DNA from: Phreatobacter stygius
GTDB taxonomy: Bacteria > Pseudomonadota > Alphaproteobacteria > Rhizobiales > Phreatobacteraceae
Length of the DNA stretch: 64,000 bases
NCBI RefSeq assembly: GCF_005144885.1
Contig: NZ_CP039690.1
Location: 5,469,001 to 5,533,000, forward strand
Direction: 5' to 3'
Below the pieces are notes generated by a model. It did no database searches, had not been told where the DNA came from, and was given only the letters and a program-made list of their open reading frames with translations. The position numbers were made by a program, and so were the translations under genes. This document shows, one piece after another, positions 52-13,022 of the stretch (its first letter is position 1; every line of letters begins with the position of its first letter).

Positions 52-816
52 GTGACCAACGCGCTCGCGCCGCTGCTCGACGGCCAGCTGGCCTTCCTGA
101 AAGAAAAGCTCGCCTTCGCCGATGACCCGCGCGAGGCAGTCCATGGCGCCGATCTCACCGACCGGACGGTCTTGCGTGACATCCTGGCGCGTTACGGCGA
201 GGCCTATCCCGGCCAGGACCCGCGCGCCGTCGCCTCGCTCTGGTCGAAATGGCACTTCGCCGTCGTGCTCGAGCCGGCCTTGGCGACCAACATGCTGCTC
301 GACTGGGCCCTGCCGACCGGTCTCGGCGACATTGGCCTGATCTTCACCGCCGAGGCGCGGGCGCAGGCGCTCAAGGTGTCCCGTGCCGGCCATGCCTTCA
401 AGCCGGCGACGGCGGAGGCGCGTTTCGCCGCGCTGATCGACGGCCATCTCGAACCGGTCATTGCCGCGCTCGCAGGGGAAACCGGCATCACGCCGCGGGT
501 GCTCTGGAGCAATGCCGGCAATTATTTCGAGCATGCGCTGCGCACCGTCGAGCGGGCGACCTCGTCAGCCCAGCCCGGCGTCGTTCACGCCAAGGCTTTG
601 CTGGCGAGCCGGACACGAGCGGATGGCCGGCCGAACCCCTTGTTCGAGCCGGTCTATTACCTCGACCAACAGGCTGAGACCGGCCGGCGCCGGCGGATCT
701 GCTGTATCCGCTACCTCATTCCCGAACAGAAATATTGCGGTGCCTGTCCGATCGTCCGCAAGGATCGGGCGAGCCGCGATGCGGACGAGCGTCAGGCGGC
801 GCGCGCGCGAACATGA
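52..816 (+). CDS. fhuF: FhuF-like siderophore-iron reductase
   Basis: A 254-aa protein with a GTG start. FhuF proteins are cytoplasmic [2Fe-2S] proteins that reduce ferric siderophores after import so that the iron is released. The family's cysteine pattern C-C-x10-C-x2-C is present at the C-terminus: C217, C218, C229 and C232. The N-terminal 200 residues are a helical domain without other metal motifs. The arginine-rich tail after the cluster is unusually polar. A fragment that looks like the end of an iron-siderophore permease lies convergently just downstream, which fits a former iron-uptake locus. The function call rests on the cysteine signature and is fairly safe. Confidence 0.85.
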   Translation: MTNALAPLLDGQLAFLKEKLAFADDPREAVHGADLTDRTVLRDILARYGEAYPGQDPRAVASLWSKWHFAVVLEPALATNMLLDWALPTGLGDIGLIFTAEARAQALKVSRAGHAFKPATAEARFAALIDGHLEPVIAALAGETGITPRVLWSNAGNYFEHALRTVERATSSAQPGVVHAKALLASRTRADGRPNPLFEPVYYLDQQAETGRRRRICCIRYLIPEQKYCGACPIVRKDRASRDADERQAARART

Positions 817-1452: not shown

Positions 1453-1674
1453 GGTCGTGTCTCCTGGTTCGCATGTTGTCGGGAGGCGGGCCTTGGGGCT
1501 CGCGCTCCATCCTGACAACGAACGGGATCCCGCGGGATCGACATCGTCCGATGCTTTTTTCGAGGCAGGGCCGTGCGCCGTTTGCGCGCGATCCTGGAGC
1601 GACAGCGCGGCAAGGCGGGGTCCTGCCGGATCGGCCAACTGAATTGCGGAAGCGGCCAGCTTCGACGGAAATGC

Positions 1675-2187
1675 TCATCCTGGACGCCGCTTGATCCACC
1701 GATCGAGCCAGTGGTCGAGCGAAATCCGCCCCGGCCCAGACGCCATGATGGCGAGCGCCATCGCGGCCCAGGTCACATGCAGAGGCCAGCCCTGCGGCAC
1801 GGTCAGTTGCACGACGAGCGTCATGACCAGAAGTCCGAACGCAGCCGGTCGCGTCGCCAGACCGAGAACGAGGAGGATGGGCAAGAGGATTTCCGCGGAA
1901 CCTGCGGCGAAGGCCACCACGGCGGGAGCCGGGAAGGAATAAGGACCGCCCGGCAAGTGCAACTGGAATTCCGAACTGAAGAGCAGCACGGCGACCTCGT
2001 TCAATTGCAGGAAACCGTCCCATTTGTTGACCCCGGATCGCCAGAACGGAACTGCCAGCGCGCAGCGCAGGACAAGCTGGGTCAGCGACGGCGGGGCGAG
2101 GGCGCGAAGGATGGCGCCTGCGCGGTAGAAAACCCTGCCGATCGCTTGCCATCCAGCGGCGCCGGCGACATGCGGTCCAGGGGCCAT
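1675..2187 (-). CDS. DoxX-family membrane protein of the bufferin operon (BufD-like)
   Basis: A 170-aa protein with four hydrophobic segments and typical DoxX features: an RSGVNKW motif near residue 50 and PILLVLGLATRPAA in the third segment. It starts with ATG at 2187 behind GGAGGATAAGG, only 4 bp after the DUF2063 gene, so the two are co-transcribed. In bufferin loci a DoxX protein is a common fourth gene and is thought to act in the membrane, possibly in electron transfer or redox support of peptide maturation; that role is inference. It is the last gene of the operon. Confidence 0.85.
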   Translation of the reverse strand: MAPGPHVAGAAGWQAIGRVFYRAGAILRALAPPSLTQLVLRCALAVPFWRSGVNKWDGFLQLNEVAVLLFSSEFQLHLPGGPYSFPAPAVVAFAAGSAEILLPILLVLGLATRPAAFGLLVMTLVVQLTVPQGWPLHVTWAAMALAIMASGPGRISLDHWLDRWIKRRPG

Positions 2188-2191
2188 GGCC

Positions 2192-2992
2192 TTATCCTCC
2201 CTGATTTGCCGCGATGAAGGCACCGGCCTCGAGCATCCCGACGATGCTGGCGGAGAGATCGAATTCCGGACTGTCCGCAAGCGCCGCCGCGGCGGCCGCG
2301 CCGAGTGGCGCGCCCGCGACGAGGTGCATCAGAAAGACCGTGCCGCCAGGTGGCAGGCGCCTGACAACGACCTCGAGACCGGGCCTCGTCACCAGCGCGT
2401 CCTCCGGCTCGGTTGCGCGGATCCGCCCGACCGGGCCGTCGCTCCGGTTTGCGACGAATATGGTGAGTGCCGGGAACCGGGAGCGCAGGATCCGGGTCGC
2501 CGGATGGGGCGTCAGAACGGTATCGGCCAGCCGGTCCGACGCTACGGAACCCAGAGCCTGGGGCGTCAGCGGTTCGGCATCGGCGGCGTGATAGGCGTCG
2601 AGCCAGGCCCGCTCGATGCGCGCCACGTCCGCCAGCCATGGCATCGGCTGCGCATGTTCATAAGCTTCGATGAAATCGGCAAAGCCGTGGCCATATTCGA
2701 ACAGAAGCGGCGATGAGGGTGGCGCGGCGCGCACATGAGCCCTCGCCATCGCCCGGAAGAAATCCACGCCGACAATGCGCGCCGTCGCCGGAAACGTTGC
2801 CGCCAGCGCGTTGACGAGACTGACGGTGATGTTGTTGCGATAGACGTCGTAACGTTTGCCCGCGGCCTTGCCGGCTGGCCCGGTGAGCGACGAGGGCGGC
2901 GGTCGACCGGGATCGAGCAGCGCGGCGGCAAAGGCCCGCGCATAGCCAGGCTTGTCGCCGAAATCGTCCGCGGGGCGTTCACGCGCCAGCAT
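2192..2992 (-). CDS. DUF2063 protein, MbnC-like partner of the RiPP oxidase (BufC-like)
   Basis: A 266-aa protein. The N-terminal DUF2063 domain shows YDVYRNN at about residues 48-54 and a following [17 protein letters not shown] helix, both typical. In methanobactin and bufferin biosynthesis this protein pairs with the DUF692 iron enzyme and helps bind the precursor peptide. The C-terminal half (from about residue 150) is the variable domain of the family. ATG 2992 is preferred because AGGA lies at good spacing; a GTG at 3013 is also in frame. The gene overlaps the end of the DUF692 gene by 14 bp, implying translational coupling. Confidence 0.85.
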
Positions 2993-3905
2993 GGGTCCTG
3001 TCCCGTATGGCACTGGTCGCGTGGCGGTCGAGGATCGCTTGCGCGGCGGTGGCCTCCGCCTTGAGCACGGGCCAGTCGGGAATGGCGCTGTCCCATTCGA
3101 CCAGCGTCGGTATCGGTCCGCAGTGGCCGATCACGACGCCAAAAAGCGTCCACACGGCGTCGGCGACCGGGCCGTCATGGCTGTCGATGAGCAGGAGATC
3201 GCCTTCGTCGTCCGCCTGTTCGGCATGTCCCGCCAGATGGATTTCGCCGACATGCTCAAGCGGAAAATCAGCCAGATAGGCAAGCGCGGCGTAGCCGTGA
3301 TTGGTGGCGGAAACGAAGACATTGTTGATGTCGAGCAACAGGCCGCAGCCTGTGCGCCGGACAAGTTCGCGGATGAAATCGGTCTCGTTCATCGTCGACT
3401 CGGCAAAAAGGACGTAGGTGGACGGATTCTCCAGCAGGATCGGGCGGCCGATCGCCTCCTGCACTTCATCGATGTGGTCGGCGACCCGGGCGAGCGTGGC
3501 CAGTGTGTAGGGCAGCGGCAATAGATCGTTGAAATAGGTCGTATCGTGGGTCGACCAGGCGAGATGCTCGGAAACAAGCGCCGGCTCGTAACGATCGACA
3601 AGCGCCTGGAAGCGCCCGAGATGGGTCTTGTCCAGAGGCTCAGGCCCGCCAATCGACATGCACACGCCGTGGAGCGAGACCGGGTAGCTCAGGCGGATGC
3701 GCGTGAGCGCGTCGTGTGGCGGGCCGCCGGCGCCCATATAGTTTTCGGCATGAACTTCAAAGAAGCCGGTCTGCTTCACGTCGGCGAGAATGGCCGGCAG
3801 ATGCTCATGCTTGAGGCTGGTTCCGGCGAGGCCTGCCACGGGATGCGCGGGAAGGCGGAGCATCCCGGATGCGTTCGGCTCGGGTCTTGGCGCCAAATAC
3901 TTCAT
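2979..3905 (-). CDS. DUF692 multinuclear iron enzyme, MbnB-like (BufB-like)
   Basis: A 308-aa TIM-barrel protein of family DUF692. These are non-heme iron oxidases that rework cysteines of a precursor peptide (oxazolone/thioamide in methanobactin, thiooxazole in bufferins). Barrel-strand motifs with candidate metal ligands are visible: FFEVHAENY (E50, H52, E54), SLHG (H79), SEH (E113, H114), LLEN (E159), LDINN (D192), EIHLAGH (H223, H227), DSH (D241, H243) and VEWD (E270). Its length is normal for the family. It lies between the precursor gene (45 bp upstream) and the DUF2063 gene (overlapping), the order expected for a RiPP operon. Confidence 0.92.
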
Positions 3906-3950
3906 CTTGGCCTCCGGTTCGGGTAGCCAGGCTCATGGCTCGGCCGTCCG

Positions 3951-4271
3951 CTACCGCAAGTCGCGCGTCAGCGCCTGAAGCGAGCCGGTGCGACCTCCCG
4001 GTAGCTGCATCGTGGCGCAGGTGCCGCCAGCCACGAACTTCCAGGCATTGCCCTGGTAATCAACGGTAGAAGTGCCCTGGCAGGTCGTCCCGGGACCGGC
4101 GGCGCAGTCGTTCTGTCCCTTCAGCACGACGCCGTAGCATTTCTCCATGCCCCTCGACATGGCGTCCCTGACCTGCGCATCCGTCAGCGGTGCCGCGGCT
4201 GCGAAGGACGAAAGCGCGGTCGCGACGGCGCTCGCCAGGAAGGTCGAACTCACGATTGATCTGGTGGACAT
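3951..4271 (-). CDS. DUF2282 bufferin-type RiPP precursor (BufA1-like)
   Basis: A 106-aa secreted precursor. Residues 1-27 form a signal peptide ending AAA before APLTD. The mature part carries the family signature [18 protein letters not shown] and four cysteines (C45, C56, C64, C85). In characterised bufferins the central cysteines are converted to thiooxazoles by the DUF692/DUF2063 pair and the exported peptide binds copper. The tail after C85 (about 20 residues, [17 protein letters not shown]) is longer than I remember for most members. ATG 4271 has GGAGA at suitable spacing. It is the first gene of the operon, as expected for a precursor needed in excess. Confidence 0.92.
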
Positions 4272-4355
4272 GTTGCCATCTCCGGTGTGTTGCTCAGAGC
4301 GCTATTCCCCAAGCGCCATGGCCACTCGCGCGCGGGATCAGCACGCAATGGGCAG

Positions 4356-4381
4356 TTCGATGCGGATGGGCCATGCGTTAC
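4356..4381 (-). promoter_or_regulatory. candidate ECF (sigma-F-like) promoter of the bufferin operon
   Basis: On the minus strand the sequence reads GTAACG, 16 bp, then CGAA, about 85 bp upstream of the precursor start codon. As I recall, the metal-stress ECF factor SigF of Caulobacter, which controls the homologous DUF2282 operons, uses GTAACC-N16-CGAA. The match is exact apart from the last base of the -35 element. No sigma factor gene lies nearby, so a factor encoded elsewhere would be needed. The rest of the 213-bp gap (4272-4484) holds no gene. Confidence 0.45.
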
Positions 4382-4484
4382 GTGGCTCTGGCGACACGAG
4401 TGCGTGATCGACGGATTCGGCGTAAAAAGCGTAGCTGAATCAACCGCGGCTATTGCTCCCGGCGCCTCACGCCCTGGCCGTCCC

Positions 4485-5258
4485 TCAGCTGCCGGTCCAT
4501 TCCGGCGTGCGTTTGGCGACGAAGGCGTCGACGCCAATGCGGAAGTCGCGGCTGCCGTAGCATTCGCGAACCAGGTCGTCGCCGTCGACTTCGACCGCCT
4601 TCAGGATGCGGCGGATGGCCTCCTTGCTGACCCGCATGGTGACCGGGGCGTGGTTGACCAGGCGCCCGGTGATCTCGGCGACGCGGCCGTCGATGCCTTC
4701 CTCGACCACGTCGAGCAGGAAGCCGGCATCACGCGCCTCGGCGGCCGGGATCATCTCGGCCATCAGCAGGATGCGCTTGGTGCGCGCAACCCCGAGCTCG
4801 GCGACCAGGCGGGCGTAATTGGCGGCGGACAGGCAATTGCCGAGCGTCCGGGCAATCGGAATGCCGAATTGGGCGTCGGCGGTTGCGATGCGCAGGTCGC
4901 AGCAGGCGGCGATCGCCAGGCCGCCGCCGACGCACCAGCCGTCGACCACGGCGAGGGTTGGCACCGGCAAGGTTTCGAGCGCGGTCAGGATCGCCTCGAT
5001 CCGCGCCTCATAAGCGATGCCGTCCTCGCCTGATGTGAAGGCCTGGAACTGATGGATATCGGTACCGGCGATGAAGGCCTTGCCACCGGCGCCGCGGAAG
5101 GTCGCGACCCGCAGCGTGCGGTCGGCGCGGATGGTCGCGCAGATCTCGGCCAGTTGCTCATACATCGCCCAGGTCATGGCGTTGCGCGCCTGTGGCCGGT
5201 CGAACAGGACGTGGGCGATGGCGCCCTCGCGGGTGAAACGGACGGTTCCCTGGTCCAT
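4485..5258 (-). CDS. enoyl-CoA hydratase/isomerase family protein
   Basis: A 257-aa crotonase-fold protein. The oxyanion-hole segment GGKAFIAGTDIHQF and the second motif VVDGWCVGGGLAIAACCDLRIA are clear, followed by QFGIPIARTLGNCLS. It should bind an acyl-CoA thioester and hydrate or isomerise it; the substrate is unknown. The start MDQGTVRF at 5258 fits the family; an open extension upstream is arginine-rich and not conserved. It follows the amidohydrolase gene by 50 bp on the same strand and is probably the last gene of the catabolic run 8269 to 4485. Confidence 0.85.
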   Translation of the reverse strand: MDQGTVRFTREGAIAHVLFDRPQARNAMTWAMYEQLAEICATIRADRTLRVATFRGAGGKAFIAGTDIHQFQAFTSGEDGIAYEARIEAILTALETLPVPTLAVVDGWCVGGGLAIAACCDLRIATADAQFGIPIARTLGNCLSAANYARLVAELGVARTKRILLMAEMIPAAEARDAGFLLDVVEEGIDGRVAEITGRLVNHAPVTMRVSKEAIRRILKAVEVDGDDLVRECYGSRDFRIGVDAFVAKRTPEWTGS

Positions 5259-5308
5259 GCGGGCTGACTTTCTTTTGGCGTCTGGCGGTTCTGAATCGTC
5301 GCCCGAGC

Positions 5309-6586
5309 CTAGGCGCGGTTGGCGAGATCCCAAAGCACATCGGCGAGAACCTGGGTCCCGGCGGTCAGATGCGCCGGCTCGGCCCATTCCGCCGGATTGT
5401 GCGAAATGCCGCCGCGGCAGGGCACGAAAATCATGCCGGCCGGGCAGACATAGTGCAGCTGGCGTGCGTCGTGGCCGGCAGCCGAATAGACATCCATGGC
5501 CGGAATATCGAGCGCGCCGGCGGCCTTGCCGATGGCGTCGCGGATGGCGGGCGCGAAGGTGAGCGAGGGGGAGTGCTGGATCTGCTTCAGCGCGACCTGG
5601 CAGGGCCCGCGCTCGGCCTCGACAATGCGCCTGATCTCGCCATCGACCCGGTCGACGATCGTATTGTCGGGATGGCGCAGGTCGATCGAGAAGAACACTT
5701 CCGCCGGCACCACCGAAGGGGCGTTGGGCGTCACCTGCATGAGCCCGACGGTGAGCAGCGTATCGGCTGGCTCCATGGCCGCCTGATCCATGGCGGCGAT
5801 CATCCTGACCGCGGCCATCAGCGCGTCGCGGCGGTCGGCGCGCAGCGCCGTGCCGGCATGGGCGGCTTCGCCCGTCACCGTCACCCGGTAGCGCCGGGTG
5901 CCCTGGATGCCGGTGACGACACCTAAGGGAATGCCGGCCGCCTCCAGCACCGAGGCCTGTTCGATATGCGGCTCGACATAAGCCGCGATCGGCAAACCGA
6001 AGGGCCGGAGCGGCACGCCCTGGTCGCCGGCGAGGATCGCCTTCACCGCGTCGGCGATCGAAACGCCCTGGGCGTCGCGGATCGGCAGAACCTGGTCGAG
6101 CGTCTTGGTGCCGGTGAAGACGTCCGATCCGGTCATGCCCGGCGCGAAGCGCGAGCCTTCCTCATTGGTCCAGGCGACGATCTCGATCGGCCGGAGCGGC
6201 CGCGCGCCGCGCGCCGCCATGGCCTCCACCGCTTCGAGTGCCGCCAGCACGCCGAACACGCCGTCGAACTTGCCGCCGGTCGGCTGGGAATCGATATGCG
6301 AGCCGGCGACAACCGGCGGCAGCGCGGGATCGCGCCCCTCGTAACGCAGGAACAGGTTGGCGATGCCGTCGGTGAACGGTTTCAGCCCGATCCGCCGGCC
6401 CCAGGCGATCACCTGGGCGCGCGCCTCGCTCTCGACGCCTGAGAGGGTGGGGCGGTCGACGCCGCCATCGTCGCGGGCGCCGAAACGGGCAAGCGCCATA
6501 TGGCGATCCCACAGCCGCTGGCCGTCGACCGCATCCGATGTTCTCGATTGGGAGGTTTTGGATTGGGAGGTTCTCGACTGCGTCAT
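5309..6586 (-). CDS. M20-family amidohydrolase (HyuC/carbamoylase-like)
   Basis: A 425-aa zinc-dependent hydrolase of the N-carbamoyl-L-amino-acid hydrolase/allantoate amidohydrolase group. Metal-site motifs are GSHIDSQPTGGKFDG (H97, D108), TNEEGSRFAPG (E142/E143), EPHIEQ (H208) and, near the C-terminus, SAAGHDARQ. The family cleaves C-N bonds of carbamoyl or ureido compounds; which one is not evident. The first 17 residues are a short repeat of TSQSR/K units encoded by 15-bp DNA repeats and are probably disordered. It starts 8 bp after the alpha/beta hydrolase stop, so the two form one transcript. Confidence 0.88.
   Translation of the reverse strand: MTQSRTSQSKTSQSRTSDAVDGQRLWDRHMALARFGARDDGGVDRPTLSGVESEARAQVIAWGRRIGLKPFTDGIANLFLRYEGRDPALPPVVAGSHIDSQPTGGKFDGVFGVLAALEAVEAMAARGARPLRPIEIVAWTNEEGSRFAPGMTGSDVFTGTKTLDQVLPIRDAQGVSIADAVKAILAGDQGVPLRPFGLPIAAYVEPHIEQASVLEAAGIPLGVVTGIQGTRRYRVTVTGEAAHAGTALRADRRDALMAAVRMIAAMDQAAMEPADTLLTVGLMQVTPNAPSVVPAEVFFSIDLRHPDNTIVDRVDGEIRRIVEAERGPCQVALKQIQHSPSLTFAPAIRDAIGKAAGALDIPAMDVYSAAGHDARQLHYVCPAGMIFVPCRGGISHNPAEWAEPAHLTAGTQVLADVLWDLANRA
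6541..6585 (-). repeat. 15-bp tandem repeat encoding the amidohydrolase N-terminus
   Basis: Three imperfect 15-bp units, each close to TTCTCGATTGGGAGG on the plus strand, encode the pentapeptides TSQSR, TSQSK and TSQSR at the start of the M20 hydrolase. The unit length keeps the frame, so copy changes would only lengthen or shorten a disordered tail. Because each unit also supplies GGGAGG only on the non-coding strand, it is not a ribosome site. Confidence 0.6.
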
Positions 6587-6594
6587 GCCATGCC

Positions 6595-7476
6595 TCAATT
6601 GGTCCGCATGATCTGGGCGGGATTGGCACGCGGGTCGCGCGGCCCCCATTGGCCGGCTTCGACCTGGGCGATGAACTCGGCCACCAGGCGGTTGAACAGT
6701 TCGGGTTCTTCGAGGTTCAGCGTGTGGCCGGCCTTCGGCAGCACGGCGAGACCGCAGCGCGGAATGGCGCGCTTCAGGAACAGGCCGGGCTGGATGCAGT
6801 GGTCGTCCTCGTCGCCGGTCATCACCAGCACCGGCACGTCGAGCTTGCCGAATTCGGCTTCCAGGTCATAGAGCGAGGGCCGGCGCATCTGCACGCCGCG
6901 CATGGTGTTGGCGGCGCCCAGCGCGTCATGCTGGCCGAGCCGGTCGGCGAACAATTGCCAGCCGCGCGGATCCTTGTTCTGGAACTGTACGCGCGAGGCG
7001 CCCTCGGCATAGACGGGGGCAAAGTCTTTTGGGCCGCGCTCCTGGAAGTTGCGCGCGACCTGTTCGGAAATGCCCTTGAAATAGTCCTCATGGGCCTTTT
7101 CCGCGCCATAACCGGCGCCGGCGGCGACCACCGACTTGACGCGGTCGGGATGGCGCAATGCCGCATGCAACGAGGCGAAGCCGCCCATCGACAAGCCGAC
7201 GACATGGGCCTTGTCGATGCCTTCGGCGCTCAGCACGTCGACGATGTCGTCGGCGGCGCGCGCCTGCGAATAGCGCTCGACATCGGCCGGCACGTCCGAG
7301 GGCCGGTAGCCGCGTGCCGCGAAGGTGATGCAGCGGTGCCGCCTGGCGAAGGCATTCATCTGCGGCTCCCAGCTCCAGTGGCTGCCGCCGAACTCGTGGA
7401 CGAAGATGATCGGCGTGCCCTGGCCGGCGGTTTCGTAGAACAGGCGGATGCCGTCGCTGGTCGTCGCAAAAGCCAT
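6595..7476 (-). CDS. alpha/beta hydrolase
   Basis: A 293-aa alpha/beta-hydrolase fold protein. It has the HEFGGSHWSW oxyanion-hole segment at about 27-36, the nucleophile elbow GLSMGG with Ser96, an acid in TGDEDDHC near residue 226, and the catalytic His in KAGHTLN near residue 255. Many such enzymes hydrolyse C-C bonds, esters or enol lactones in ring or ureide catabolism. The neighbours (SDR upstream by 10 bp, amidohydrolase downstream by 8 bp) place it in the same pathway; the substrate is unknown. Confidence 0.88.
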   Translation of the reverse strand: MAFATTSDGIRLFYETAGQGTPIIFVHEFGGSHWSWEPQMNAFARRHRCITFAARGYRPSDVPADVERYSQARAADDIVDVLSAEGIDKAHVVGLSMGGFASLHAALRHPDRVKSVVAAGAGYGAEKAHEDYFKGISEQVARNFQERGPKDFAPVYAEGASRVQFQNKDPRGWQLFADRLGQHDALGAANTMRGVQMRRPSLYDLEAEFGKLDVPVLVMTGDEDDHCIQPGLFLKRAIPRCGLAVLPKAGHTLNLEEPELFNRLVAEFIAQVEAGQWGPRDPRANPAQIMRTN

Positions 7477-7486
7477 GGCTCAGCCC

Positions 7487-8269
7487 TCAGATCACGGAAC
7501 GGCGCGAGGCGATGCCGCCGTCGACGGTGAAAATGGCGCCCGACGTGTAGCCGGAGCGGTAGGAGGCCAGGAACACGATGAGGTCGGTCACCTCGTGGAT
7601 ATGGGCCGGCCGTTTCAGCGGATAACGCTGCTGCAGCTCGTCGTAGCGGTCGGCGTCGCCGAGCCAGTCCTTCGCCCGCTTCTTCAGCATGTTGTAGATG
7701 CGGTCGGTATCGACGGGACCGGGATTGACCCCGACCACCCGGATATTGTCGTCGAGCGAATGGCCGCCCATGGCGCGGGTGAAGGCCATCAGGCTGGCAT
7801 TGCCGGTCGTGCCGGCGACATAGGCCGGGTCGAAGACCTCGCCGCCATTGCCGATATTATTGATGATGACGCCACCGCCCTGCGCCTTCATGCGCGGATA
7901 GAAGGCGCGGGTCAGATTGATATAGCCGAGCACTTTCAGCTCCCAGCCGGCGCGCCACTTGGCCTCGTCGACATCCCACAGCGAGCCGCTCGGAATGACG
8001 CCGGCATTGTTGACGAGAACGTCGATGTCGCCGACGGCGGCGACCAGCGTCTCGACCGCGCCGGGTGCCGTCATGTCCATGGCATGGGCCGTGACGGTGA
8101 CGCCGTGCTCGGCCTCCAGCGCGCGCTTCAACGCGTCGAGCCGGTCGCCCGAGCGCGCCACGACATGCAGGTTGCAGCCTTCCTCGGCGAAGGAACGGGC
8201 GAGCCCTTCGCCGATCCCCTGCGAGGCGCCCGTGATCAGCACCGTCTTGCCTTTGAGCCCGAGGTCCAT
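7487..8269 (-). CDS. short-chain dehydrogenase-like protein lacking YxxxK
   Basis: A 260-aa SDR-fold protein. The nucleotide-binding motif TGASQGIG (13-20) and NNAG (87-90) are intact, and the C-terminal NPGPVDTDR and DGGIASR segments are typical. The catalytic region is not: where classical members have YxxxK, this one reads G153-T-T-G-N157, and the usual Ser about 13 residues earlier is Gly. The protein may bind a dinucleotide without classical oxidoreductase chemistry, or use other residues. I believe close homologues share the same change, so it is probably a subfamily rather than a dead gene. It heads the run of genes down to 4485. Confidence 0.85.
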   Translation of the reverse strand: MDLGLKGKTVLITGASQGIGEGLARSFAEEGCNLHVVARSGDRLDALKRALEAEHGVTVTAHAMDMTAPGAVETLVAAVGDIDVLVNNAGVIPSGSLWDVDEAKWRAGWELKVLGYINLTRAFYPRMKAQGGGVIINNIGNGGEVFDPAYVAGTTGNASLMAFTRAMGGHSLDDNIRVVGVNPGPVDTDRIYNMLKKRAKDWLGDADRYDELQQRYPLKRPAHIHEVTDLIVFLASYRSGYTSGAIFTVDGGIASRRSVI

Positions 8270-8413
8270 GGTTCGAAATCTCCGTATGAGAGTGGTGTCT
8301 GCGCGACGGGTGAGGGTGGTCGCCTAGGGACGTCTTGTGTTCCGGCCTTCGACCCGCGGGGTGAACTTGGTCTGATGCACGAGCCTTGAAGGTCCGCCCG
8401 AGAACCACCGCCT

Positions 8414-8439
8414 TGACCTCTCCCCGGCGGGGAGAGGTC
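8414..8439. repeat. perfect intergenic hairpin
   Basis: GACCTCTCCCC (8415-8425), loop GGC, then GGGGAGAGGTC (8429-8439). This GGGGAGAGGT motif is of the kind scattered between genes in rhizobial genomes; related cores occur at 48245-48267, near 54517 and at 54770 in this window. No poly-T follows, so it is not an obvious terminator. Confidence 0.7.
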
Positions 8440-8512
8440 GGCCGAAGGCCGGGAGAGGGGGCGCGCCGCTTTCCGCGAAGGCATCATGCGAAACCGGCGA
8501 CGCACCATGCTC

Positions 8513-8667
8513 TACGTCACCCCCGGCGAGCGAAGCGAGGGAAGGGGGGCCAGGGGTCGCTTCGCCGCGCCCCCAGTGCATGTGTTTGGGTGATCTCGCT
8601 GTGTTGAGGCCAGGGCCCCGCAACTCCTGGACCCCCTTCCCTCGCTTCGCTCGCCGGGGGTGACGTA
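8513..8667. repeat. large inverted repeat with 42-bp arms
   Basis: The left arm (8513-8554) and the right arm (8626-8667) are reverse complements apart from one or two positions; both contain CGAGCGAAGCGAGGGAAGG or its complement. The 71-bp spacer has no gene. With the hairpin at 8414-8439 it occupies much of the 554-bp gap between the SDR and the aminotransferase genes, where I see no credible coding sequence. Just to the right, 8686-8703 (TGTGTGAATCCGGTAGCC) recurs exactly at 54749-54766. Confidence 0.75.
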
Positions 8668-8823
8668 CTGCGGCGTGTAATGCGTTGTGTGAATCCGGTA
8701 GCCCCGCCGGGGAGAGGTGAAGAGGTGCCGCTGGGAAAGGCAAAGCGAACCTGGGCCGGTTGTGGGTCTTGCGTTCTGCGAAGGCGGCCATTGGCGGAAA
8801 CCTCATGGGCGAGGGCAGGCGGG

Positions 8824-9960
8824 TCAGAACAATTTGACGGCTTCGTTGCGGCCGCGGGCCTGTTCGACCAGGCGCGGCAGCAGGTCGACGAATTCCTCGA
8901 CCCAGGCGGTCGGCACGCTGGTGCTGATCTTGACGAAGCGGTCGCCGAAGGTCGGCGTGTGATAGGCGCCCTGGCGGATCATGATGTCGTGCTCCTGATA
9001 GGCGGCGACCAGCGCCTCCGGCTTGACCCCGGCGCGCTCGCATTCCAGCACGATGAAATTGCCGTTGGAGGGATAGACCGGCATAGCGAGGCCGGGGATC
9101 CGGTCGGAGGCGTCCTTGATCAGCTTCTGGTTCGCCCGCTGCTGAGCCAGCACGCCCGGGAACCATTCGTCCTTGATTGTCAGACCGGCGAGCGCTGCGC
9201 GCTGCGACAGGATGTTGGAGCCGAGATTGTTCGGCGGCGCGCCGGCGAGCTTTTCGACGATATCGGGATGGGCGACCACGGCGCCGACCCGAAGGCCCGC
9301 GAAGCCCAGCCATTTCGAGAAGCTGTAGATGGTGATGGTCCGCTCGGGGTAGCGGGTCGCGGCGAGCGTGTGGTCATAGGCGAAATGGCGATAGGTGCAG
9401 TCGTGGATCAGATAGGCGCCGGCCTGTCTTGTCGCCGCGACGATGCCGTCGATCTCGGCTGCCGTGCAGGCGCTCCCGAGCGGATTGTTCGGATCGACCA
9501 GGTAAACCACCTTGGTCTTCGGCGTGATGGCGGCGGCAAGCCGTTCCGGCGCCAGGCGATAGCCGTGCTCCTCGCCATAGATCGGGATCTGCGTCACCGT
9601 GGCGCCGACCGAGCGGGCAAAGGCCATCGGCCAGTTCCAGGTCGGATCGGTGGTGATGAACTCGTCGCCGGGCTCAAGCAGCGTGTGGCAGACGTGGTAG
9701 AGCGAGGCGACCGCCCCGTCCGACAGCAGCGCCGCCTGACCTGGCAGCCCGAGATCGGCGACGATGCCGTGGCGCAGCTCTTCCAGGCCCGCCGGCGGCG
9801 CGTAGATGTGGAACTCCTCGTCGCGGATGCATTTCTCCATTGCCGCCAGGACGGCTGGATGCGGCGTGGCGTGATTGGTGTTCTGACCCATCCAGCGCAG
9901 GCCCGGCGTGTTCACCAGGCGATCGAAATGGGCGTTCCTGACCTCGAAGGGTTTCATCAT
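8824..9960 (-). CDS. PLP-dependent class I/II aminotransferase
   Basis: About 378 aa of fold-type I PLP enzyme. Visible features are ATPHPAVLAAMEKCI near the start, the DPNNPLGS loop, HDCTYRHFAYD with the cofactor-contacting Asp and Tyr, and SFSKWLGFAGLRVG with the PLP lysine. It probably transaminates an amino acid or amine handled by the divergent ABC importer. Two adjacent Met codons (9960, 9957) follow GGAGAG; the spacing slightly favours the second. The open frame extends upstream through the promoter region, but those codons are not family-like. Regulation by the GntR at 13019 is likely (see the repeated operator). Confidence 0.88.
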   Translation of the reverse strand: MMKPFEVRNAHFDRLVNTPGLRWMGQNTNHATPHPAVLAAMEKCIRDEEFHIYAPPAGLEELRHGIVADLGLPGQAALLSDGAVASLYHVCHTLLEPGDEFITTDPTWNWPMAFARSVGATVTQIPIYGEEHGYRLAPERLAAAITPKTKVVYLVDPNNPLGSACTAAEIDGIVAATRQAGAYLIHDCTYRHFAYDHTLAATRYPERTITIYSFSKWLGFAGLRVGAVVAHPDIVEKLAGAPPNNLGSNILSQRAALAGLTIKDEWFPGVLAQQRANQKLIKDASDRIPGLAMPVYPSNGNFIVLECERAGVKPEALVAAYQEHDIMIRQGAYHTPTFGDRFVKISTSVPTAWVEEFVDLLPRLVEQARGRNEAVKLF

Positions 9961-9981
9961 CTCTCCGCACATATCAGGCGA

Positions 9982-10111
9982 TCTGGCATAATGAGAGGCC
10001 GTCTCGCTCCTTGCTCGAGCCAAATATGCACTATTCTGGCATGCCGGATAGCTCAAAAAATGCGCAATAAGCAAAAATATTATGCCAAGTTTGATTTCTG
10101 GCATAATGAGA
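9982..10111. promoter_or_regulatory. repeated TGGCAT operator sites between divergent promoters
   Basis: TCTGGCATAATGAGA occurs identically at 9982-9996 and 10097-10111. ATTATGCCA at 10079-10087 is the exact inverse of TGGCATAAT at 10099-10107, forming a dyad with an 11-bp gap. TCTGGCATGCC at 10035-10045 is another variant. The sites lie in an AT-richer stretch between the aminotransferase and ABC-importer genes. The natural candidate ligand is the GntR protein encoded at the end of the importer operon. Confidence 0.6.
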
Positions 10112-10199
10112 CTTGCGCGCCAGAGCAAAGGCAGTGATGGTTGTGGCCTGGGTGTAGAGGGGATCTCACCGCATGACCGACGGGTTTGGGAGAAGTCAC

Positions 10200-11288
10200 A
10201 TGCTGTCACGCCGAAATGCTCTTAAAGGCCTGGGCGCCGCCGCTGCCGCCGCCGGTGGCCTGACGCTCTCAGCCCCGGCCATCGCCCAGGGCGCGAGCCG
10301 GGTGTCGTTCACCACCTCGTGGATTCCGGAAGGGCCGAACCTCTTCGCCTATGTCGCCCGCGACAAAGGCTTCTGGAAGAATGCCGGCCTCGATGTCAGC
10401 GTCGCTCGCGGTTCGGGCTCGGGCGCCGCCGCCCAGGCGGTCAGCGCCGGCACTTTCGATTTCGGCATGGCGGCGACACCAACCGTCATCATCCAGGCCG
10501 CCAAGAAGCTGCCGATCACCTGCATCGGTCAGATCAATTACGATGCGCTGATGGGTGTCGGCGTGCTCGCCGCCTCGCCGATCCGGGCCCCGAAAGACCT
10601 GGAAGGCAAGAAGCTCGGCGCCAGCGTCACCTCGGGCGAATATCCCTTCCTGCCGCTCTATGCCGAGAAGGCCGGCTTCGACCTCGCCAAGGTGCAGATC
10701 GTCCAGGTCGACGGCAAGGTGCGCGAGCGCACCCTGGTCGAGAAGCAGGTCGATGCCGTCTCGGCCTTCGCCACCAGCACGGTGCCCTCGCTGGCACCGC
10801 TCGGCACCGACGTGCGCTTCATGCTGTTCTCCAGCGTCGGCATCGAATTCTACGGCCAGTCGCTGACCACCCAGCCGGCGCGCATCGAGAAGGACCGGGC
10901 GCTCTGCGAGGCCTTCGTCCAGGGCGCCATGGAGGCGATCCGCTTCACGCTGACCAATTTCGACGAAGCCATCGACATCTTCCTGAAGGCCAATAGCGAG
11001 GTGGCGATCTCCGCCACCGGCAAGGACTATTCCCGCATCGGCCTCGGCCTCACCAATCTGACCAACCTGGTGCCGGAGGTGAAGGACAAGGGGCTCGGGT
11101 TTGCCGACCCGCAGAAGGTCGCGACCATGGCCGATCTCGTGCTGAAATATGCCGCCGGCGAGGGCGCCACGCGGCCCGATCTCGGCGCCCTGTTCACCAA
11201 CGCCTTCGCCGGCAAGATCAAGCTGACCGCGGCCGAGCTCGCAACCGCCGAGCGGACCGCCGCGGCCTACCGCAAATATGTCGGCTGA
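10200..11288 (+). CDS. NitT/TauT-type ABC importer, substrate-binding protein
   Basis: A 362-aa periplasmic binding protein of the SsuA/NMT1 type. A twin-arginine-like leader ([15 protein letters not shown]...) ends at APAIAQG, cleaved near residue 30. The mature part begins [13 protein letters not shown], contains [14 protein letters not shown] and a [18 protein letters not shown] ligand-loop segment, all typical. The start at 10200 is preferred over an upstream Met because GGGAGAAG sits at good spacing. It heads a four-gene unit (binding protein, ATPase, permease, GntR). The ligand is unknown; sulfonates, pyrimidine precursors and amines are known for relatives. Confidence 0.9.
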
Positions 11289-11322
11289 CCACGCGCAAGA
11301 CGTGCCAGAAGGGAAGAACGCA

Positions 11323-12189
11323 ATGTTGGCCTTGGCAACGAAAGCGGAGCTCATGCCGCCACAGGAGCCCCTTGTTTCCGTCAGCGGGGTGCAGAAGACC
11401 TATTTCACCCGCCAGTCGCCGATCCAGGCCGTGGCCTCGGCCTCGGTCGATGTCGCCCGGGGCGAGTTCGTCTCGCTGCTCGGGCCCTCGGGCTGCGGCA
11501 AGAGCACGCTGTTGATGATGATCGCCGGCCTGGAAAAGCCGACGGCCGGGTCGATCAGCCTGCACGGCTCGGCCGTCGTCAATCCGCGCCGCGACATCGG
11601 CATCATCTTCCAAGACGCCACCTTGCTGCCCTGGAAGAGCACGCTGGAAAACGTGCTGTTTCCCATCCAGATCCTGAAGCTGCCGATGGAGAAATACCGG
11701 GAGAGGGCGCGTGAACTGATCGCCATGGTCGGGCTGACCGGTTTCGAGCACAAGAAGCCGGCGGAACTGTCGGGCGGCATGCGCCAGCGCGTCGCCATTT
11801 GCCGGGCGCTGATCCACGACCCCGACATTCTCCTGATGGACGAGCCGTTCAGCGCTCTCGACGCCATCACCCGCGACCAGATGAACGTGGCGCTGTCGGA
11901 GATCCTGGAGACCTATAAGAAGACCGTCATCTTCGTCACCCATTCGATCCGCGAGGCGGCCTTCCTGTCCGACCGGGTGGTGGTGATGGGCGGCCGTCCC
12001 TCGACCATCATTCTCGACATGAAGATGCCGTTTCCCCGTCCGCGCCGCTTCGAGATCGAGGAGACGCAGGAATTCGCTCAAGTCTGCCGGCAATTGCGCC
12101 TGACCATCGAGGCCGCCCACGGTCATCCGCCTGCATTGGTCAAATCTTCAACTGCGAGTCCGGCTTCCGGCTCGGCCGTCATCGAGTGA
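11323..12189 (+). CDS. NitT/TauT-type ABC importer, ATP-binding protein
   Basis: About 288 aa. Walker A is GPSGCGKST, the Q-loop FQDATLLPW, the signature LSGGMRQRV and Walker [13 protein letters not shown], with the H-loop in FVTHSIREA. This sequence pattern is that of SsuB/TauB-type ATPases. An ATG at 11278 overlaps the previous stop but lacks a ribosome site, while ATG 11323 follows GGGAAGAA. The C-terminal 30 residues beyond the ATPase core are Ser/Ala-rich. It energises the permease encoded immediately downstream. Confidence 0.9.
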
Positions 12190-12197
12190 GGTCCACC

Positions 12198-13022
12198 ATG
12201 GCCACCGCCACCATCGGCACGGAGACCGGTGCCGTCATCCCCAGCGCCCATGCCGGCCAGACCGTCGCCGGCCTGCGCAGCATCCTGCTGCCGCTGGGCC
12301 TCGCCTTCATCGTGCTCGCCGCCTGGCAGCTCTATGTCACCATTGGCAACATCCCCTCGGTGATCCTGCCGTCGCCGATCTCGATCGCCCGCTACATCGT
12401 CGCCCGCTACGACATCCTGTTGATGCACGCGGTCCCGACCACACTGGAATCGGCTGCCGGCTTCCTGCTCGCCCTGGTGCTCGGCATCGTGCTCGCCATC
12501 ATCATCACCTATTCGCGGGTGGCCCATGAGGCGCTTTATCCGAACCTGATCTTTTTCCAGCTGATCCCCAAGATCGCGCTGGCGCCCCTGTTCATCATCT
12601 GGCTCGGCATCGGCTCGCAGTCGCGCATCGCCTTCTCGGTGTTCATCGCCTTCTTTCCTGTCGTGATCGCCACCACGGCGGGATTCTTGAGCGTCGACAA
12701 GGGCATGCTCAGGCTCTGCCGGTCGCTCACCGCCACCGAATGGCAGGTGTTCACCAGCGTGCGCTTCCCTTCCGCGCTGCCGCATATCTTCTCCGGCGCC
12801 AAGATCGCGGTCACGCTCGCCATCATCGGCGTGATCATCGGCGAGTTCATCACCGCCCAGGCCGGCCTTGGCTATCTCATCATCTTCGCCACCGCGCGGG
12901 CCGATACCGAGGTCTCGATGGCGGCCATCGTGGTGCTTTGCGTTTGCGGACTGTTGCTGTACGGCCTTGTGGCGCTCGCGGAATCGATCGCGAACAGGTT
13001 TTACTCTTCGGACAGCCGATGA
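12198..13022 (+). CDS. NitT/TauT-type ABC importer, permease
   Basis: A 274-aa inner-membrane permease with six predicted transmembrane helices. The EAA-loop region is LCRSLTATEWQVFTSVRFPS followed by ALPHIFSGAKIAV, which contacts the ATPase. ATG 12198 follows GAGG; a GTG at 12186 overlapping the ATPase stop is also possible. Its own stop overlaps the start of the GntR gene (ATGA), so all four genes are probably one transcript. Confidence 0.9.
   Translation: MATATIGTETGAVIPSAHAGQTVAGLRSILLPLGLAFIVLAAWQLYVTIGNIPSVILPSPISIARYIVARYDILLMHAVPTTLESAAGFLLALVLGIVLAIIITYSRVAHEALYPNLIFFQLIPKIALAPLFIIWLGIGSQSRIAFSVFIAFFPVVIATTAGFLSVDKGMLRLCRSLTATEWQVFTSVRFPSALPHIFSGAKIAVTLAIIGVIIGEFITAQAGLGYLIIFATARADTEVSMAAIVVLCVCGLLLYGLVALAESIANRFYSSDSR

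Follow-up and report, generated by a model that had tools for sequence, protein, structure and literature searches.

A Buf1-type bufferin operon in Phreatobacter stygius, probably controlled by an unlinked SigF regulon found across the genus

Judged from its sequence, the operon described here is a complete, ordinary and intact Buf1 bufferin operon, the sole one found in the genome of Phreatobacter stygius; it lies in the window, the whole 64,000-nucleotide stretch of chromosome NZ_CP039690.1 that was analysed. Very probably, it serves copper buffering and is an accessory element attached to an ancestral, unlinked SigF regulon of oxidant and metal stress. It is one more example beside the thousands of bufferin operons already collected (PMC12452194), and the new details are that a syntenic site has it or lacks it and that a SigF regulon encoded elsewhere and found across the genus likely controls it. 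The contrast within the genus, where one species has the operon, eleven are without it and all have NrsF, offers a natural setting for the role of SigF without bufferins, and also bears on whether accessory bufferin operons carry their promoter along when they spread but leave the sigma factor behind.

The genes bufA-bufB-bufC-bufD are located on the minus strand at window positions 1675–4271 and encode, from their best start codons, proteins of 106, 308, 266 and 170 aa. These are the Buf1 (DUF2282) bufferin precursor (bufA, 3951–4271), the MNIO (former DUF692) bufferin maturase (bufB, 2979–3905), a DUF2063-RRE partner protein of PME type 1 (bufC, 2192–2992) and a DoxX-family membrane protein (bufD, 1675–2187, ATG at 2187). 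A 45-bp gap separates bufA from bufB, bufB and bufC overlap by 14 bp, and bufC is followed after 4 bp by bufD; the bufC start was placed at ATG 2992, the alternative being an upstream GTG at 3013. All four families were recovered above curated Pfam cut-offs: BufA matched PF10048 (DUF2282; E 7.2e-24, 84 bits, cut-off 22.4), BufB matched PF05114 (E 4.6e-103, 344.5 bits, cut-off 25), BufC, read from the GTG start, matched PF09836 (DUF2063; E 1.8e-25, 89.4 bits, cut-off 27.2), and BufD, read in the longer frame 1675–2280, matched PF07681 (DoxX; E 3.2e-17, 63.4 bits, cut-off 23.6). BufB also scored 374.7 bits against the NCBIfam model MNIO_BufB (cut-off 310). The initial annotation had proposed a bufferin-type RiPP operon in the arrangement known from Caulobacter, and had named a DUF2282 search with the 106-aa protein as its check; since that match is present, the observation stands, as do the coordinates and the gene order, which is that of Caulobacter CC3254–CC3257, and the reading is supported by the family models, the conserved order and a SigF-type promoter. 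Its remark that the four genes carry only domain-of-unknown-function names is outdated, as DUF692 has been renamed MbnB_TglH_ChrH in Pfam and MNIO_BufB is now a named family in NCBIfam.

Related types were compared using NCBIfam. For the Buf2 type, BufA reached 23.5 bits against BufA2 (NF050166), below the cut-off of 60, as expected for a Buf1 precursor, and no BufA1 model was among the matches of BufA in the same scan. The Hvf/oxazolin type was rejected, with HvfB at 228.9 of 360 bits, HvfC at 42.5 of 142 and HvfX at 64.8 of 80. Throughout the genome, assembled as one contig of 7.35 Mb, there was one DUF2282 match and one MNIO match. Among 80 relatives, scored by the best tblastn match per gene only, the order A-B-C-D recurs in 63 and A-B-C in 74, so the operon is not a chance arrangement. 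Two relatives (L051 and L058) have the buf genes in a different order and may be rearranged, and another (L069) has bufA with no bufB or bufC match beside it, possibly an orphan precursor.

The precursors of Buf1 (DUF2282) bufferins have been described as containing four cysteines, of which the central two are modified and the outer two form a disulfide, and the resulting thiooxazoles chelate copper; the core genes encode precursor, MNIO, DUF2063 protein and DoxX protein (PMC12452194). In BufA, the cysteines are Cys45, Cys56, Cys64 and Cys85 and the EKCYG motif is present, and in an alignment anchored on the first cysteine all four are present in each of the 110 relatives. Its N-terminus, read by eye, shows a basic residue, a hydrophobic stretch and AAAA before P28, an apparent Sec signal peptide of about residues 1–27. 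BufC as RRE partner and BufB as MNIO would act on the precursor BufA, which is exported, and would most likely convert its central Cys56 and Cys64 into 5-thiooxazoles, after which a Cys45–Cys85 disulfide would form in the periplasm; the mature peptide would then sequester excess copper, and BufD may be an accessory membrane protein. Solved relatives of BufB in the PDB include 3bww (E 1.3e-35), TglH (8hci, E 7.9e-15) and MbnB (7dz9, E 1.8e-9). Sequence searches of the PDB with BufC and with BufA returned nothing useful. A fold search with the AF2 model of BufC (pLDDT 88.7) retrieved two partner proteins of MNIO enzymes, namely TglI in its complex with TglH (TglHI, E 1.5e-6) and the Neisseria DUF2063-RRE protein 3dee (E 1.2e-4).

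A pattern search of the genome itself placed a predicted ECF16/SigF-type promoter, GTAACG-N16-CGAA, at window positions 4356–4381 on the minus strand, 84 bp before the bufA ATG. Pfam found no sigma factor gene among the four operon proteins, the two left neighbours and the one right neighbour. The genome's one nrsF (170.5 bits) adjoins an ECF sigma factor gene, sigF, with matches to sigma regions 2 and 4, about 2.2 Mb from the operon. Genome-wide, GTAACG-N16/17-CGAA has 15 matches on both strands against 32 for a reversed control; there is thus no enrichment of the motif itself, and only its placement counts. Nine sites have the N16 spacing, and four of these precede bufA, sigF-nrsF, msrA (PF01625, E 2.9e-59) and a YHS-domain gene, whose product is a marginal match (30.4 bits, cut-off 30.3) and looks exported by eye. 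The other five are L114, L117, L122, L126 and L128; L114 (G000:C1:953674-953699) precedes a reading frame of 453 aa by 70 bp. The Caulobacter form, GTAACC-N16-CGAA, has no match in the genome against 11 for its reversed control.

The placement of the motif is largely conserved in the genus. With at most one mismatch it precedes sigF at all 12 genus loci examined, three exact and nine with CGTA at –10, one genome (G006) being represented in this count by a divergent second copy and not by the orthologue. This agrees with an ECF16 SigF-NrsF system, in which the gene of an NrsF-family anti-sigma factor adjoins an ECF sigma factor gene and GTAAC-N17-CGWA precedes the pair. Upstream of msrA it is exact in 10/12 genomes and present with at most one mismatch in 12/12, and two msrA paralogues checked lack it. 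For the YHS orthologue, seven of the nine loci with enough upstream sequence have it with at most one mismatch; the sequence of another orthologue is cut, and in two genomes the gene is represented by a distant paralogue only. The YHS paralogue control is not clean, as four of its 12 loci gave a one-mismatch match, which comes from a different conserved element. An element GGTAAC(C/G)AT(T/C)TGGTCACC is conserved about 122 bp upstream of the aligned start of the second YHS-domain gene in 12/12 genus loci (L164–L175). The divergent second sigF-nrsF pair of G006 (L129, G006:C42) encodes a sigma factor 44% identical and has its own motif, GTAACC-N16-CGAA; DUF2282 and MNIO matches are both absent from that genome.

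Beyond the genus, 48 of the 80 relatives have the strict motif in the 250 bp before bufA, against 141 of 16000 windows drawn at random from these loci, and a looser form occurs in 58/80 against 221/16000, counts that come from mutually related and in part nearly identical loci and so are not independent. At the order-level loci, the corresponding values are 5/30 (strict) and 8/30 (looser), against 83/6000 and 161/6000 random windows. Even the loose motif is absent upstream of bufA in 22 of the 80 relatives and in 22 of the 30 order-level loci. A sigF or nrsF match lies within the examined stretch (up to about 12 kb) in 35 of the 80, 31 of which have the looser motif. Without such a match in that stretch, 27 of 45 relatives have it too; this genome is therefore probably no exception, and sigma factors encoded away from the operon are likely to control it in many relatives. 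Taken from motif placement and conservation, the operon is likely controlled by an unlinked, genus-wide SigF regulon. Transcription would be driven by the ECF16 sigma factor SigF, encoded together with the gene of its anti-sigma factor NrsF elsewhere on the chromosome, and the other probable targets of SigF in this genus are its own gene, msrA and the YHS-domain gene. A literature search, mainly by title and abstract, recognised no paper describing this combination of SigF targets.

Both DUF2282 and MNIO matches were found in one of 12 genus genomes, of which eight have at least 90% completeness and at most 5% contamination, and NrsF was found in all 12. Where the window has positions 1562–4484, the closest sister, G006 (L190), has 24 bp between the two flanking alignments, and the operon-bearing segment is thus absent from this syntenic site. 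The flanks are 87–90% identical in DNA over window positions 4485–12720 and 81% over 1030–1561. Two further sisters (L191 and L192) are uninformative on the left border because only the right flank was found in them, and the enoyl-CoA hydratase gene of the right flank has no close relative in the other eight (best identity 34–36%). No sign of a mobile-element origin was seen: the window has no tRNA gene, and neither a repeat search nor the junctions showed a clear direct repeat bounding 1562–4484. A siderophore-iron reductase FhuF gene is located at window positions 52–816 (TIGR03951, 158.9 bits, cut-off 63.85), and the distance between the aligned FhuF and YCII stretches is about 5.3 kb in L190 against about 0.1 kb in the window.

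On this distribution, the operon is probably an accessory cassette gained by one species of the genus, and gain is more likely than loss. The opposite reading, that the operon was ancestral to the genus, disappeared from its 11 other species and is merely retained here, seems doubtful, even with a DUF2282 match in 196 of the 397 genomes sampled from the order and NrsF in every genome of the genus. The operon was found in none of the 11 sisters, four of which are below 90% complete or above 5% contaminated. The third-position GC content of bufB, bufC and bufD (0.76–0.77) is also lower than that of the eight flanking reading frames (0.79–0.88), while that of bufA (0.81) falls inside the flanking range. 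In addition, BufB nests with sequences from Mesorhizobium, Sinorhizobium and Aestuariivirga: a tree made by a quick method from 106 rows (the window and 105 of the 110 loci) put it next to an Aestuariivirga bin (82% identity, support 83), inside a Rhizobiaceae/Phyllobacteriaceae/Aestuariivirga group of 15 rows whose support, 93, does not reach the threshold of 95. How a gained operon came under SigF is a more evenly balanced matter, and there is about an even chance that it arrived as a self-contained cassette whose own promoter put it at once under an unlinked SigF-NrsF regulon (sigF-nrsF, msrA and a YHS-domain gene) already resident in the genus. If so captured, copper buffering would be an optional module of a conserved oxidant- and metal-damage regulon. 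The function itself could be another, with the modified peptide acting chiefly against other stress (gold, mercury, chromate or cadmium, or oxidants such as hypochlorite) and not in copper buffering, a reading that appears rather improbable. The Caulobacter SigF regulon has been reported to respond to chromium and cadmium (PMC3511200) and ECF16 factors to H2O2 in B. japonicum (PMC3420878) and to hypochlorite (PMC8315932), the SigF-type motif here also precedes msrA and the YHS-domain gene, and the gig cluster of C. metallidurans, described as induced by gold, silver and copper, was without effect on copper resistance (PMC8224329). Nevertheless, the last of these papers reports that the sigF, bufferin and MsrPQ genes of Caulobacter, the bufferin operon being of the same type, are copper-induced and that a sigF mutant is copper-sensitive, and a Buf1 peptide is reported to chelate both Cu(I) and Cu(II) via its thiooxazoles (PMC12452194).

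Copper buffering thus stays the preferred function, and a further proposal concerned the end of BufA, where the initial annotation saw an unusual 20-residue Gly/Arg-containing tail that might alter processing or binding. The tail comprises 21 residues past the last cysteine. In the 30 best order-level DUF2282 matches by score, taken from a longer list with an HMM match that extends about 8 residues into the tail, it measures 19–25 residues in 21 and 15–18 in seven; the two outliers have 9 and 28 (L005 and L016), and RDx occurs inside the tail in 17. The set of 80 picked by similarity leaves 79 measurable, one being cut by a contig end, with 19–25 residues in 42 and 15–18 in 37, a set biased by one search pattern derived from the tail itself. 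A tail of 15–25 residues is hence the rule, in 28 of 30 HMM-picked and 79 of 79 measurable similarity-picked homologues. Within it, Gly96 is conserved in 108 of the 110 relatives, the exceptions being the same two outliers; a 58-row alignment (A1), in which Gly96 is invariant, omits eight of the 65 non-redundant sequences, and L005 and L016 are two of these eight. An AlphaFold model of BufA, weak overall (mean pLDDT 66) and consulted solely to compare the confidence of the tail with that of other parts, gives 85 for residues 81–90 and 83 for 91–100, so that the tail is modelled as well as the rest, the lowest confidence being in the block around Cys56 and the signal peptide. Common length, conserved Gly96 and model confidence together make the tail a normal part of the domain. 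It is therefore not unusual, and an effect on processing or binding is unsupported: that the 21 residues form a novel processing or binding element is very improbable, as nothing beyond the presence of the tail was found in favour.

Among known systems, the closest is that of Caulobacter, in which CC3254–CC3257 (CCNA_03363–03366) comprises the same four families in the same order, with a SigF-type promoter before the precursor gene, and is described as being under SigF with the motif GTAACC-N16-CGAA (PMC3511200). The SigF regulons are alike in including genes for methionine sulfoxide reductases, whereas the reductase target is MsrPQ in Caulobacter and the conserved one here is MsrA; sigF and nrsF are neighbouring loci there (CC3253 and CC3252) and about 2.2 Mb off here. 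In B. japonicum, EcfF-OsrA is reported to recognise GTAAC(g,a)-N14-15-(c,t)CG(t,a), which resembles the motif found here, with a consensus that permits CGTA, and EcfF controls methionine sulfoxide reductases, as SigF probably does here; that paper (PMC3420878) mentions neither DUF2282 nor DUF692. The NrsF-family anti-sigma factors of both have two conserved cysteines, at positions 129 and 179 in OsrA and 127 and 177 here. In S. meliloti, the ECF16 factor RpoE7 is described as controlling a divergent four-gene cluster orthologous to CC3254–3257, and reporter fusions gave no response to H2O2, cadmium or chromate (PMC6180224); rpoE7 adjoins its operon, whereas sigF is unlinked here. Lastly, captophorins have been proposed as a common class (PMC12668002), and those with Lys-Cys repeats (fontiphorin, oxazolin and gonophorin) likewise employ an MNIO and a DUF2063/RRE partner, with 5-thiooxazole chemistry proposed in the same paper; their precursors contain EGKCG repeats, whereas the precursor here is of the DUF2282 family with four non-repeated cysteines.
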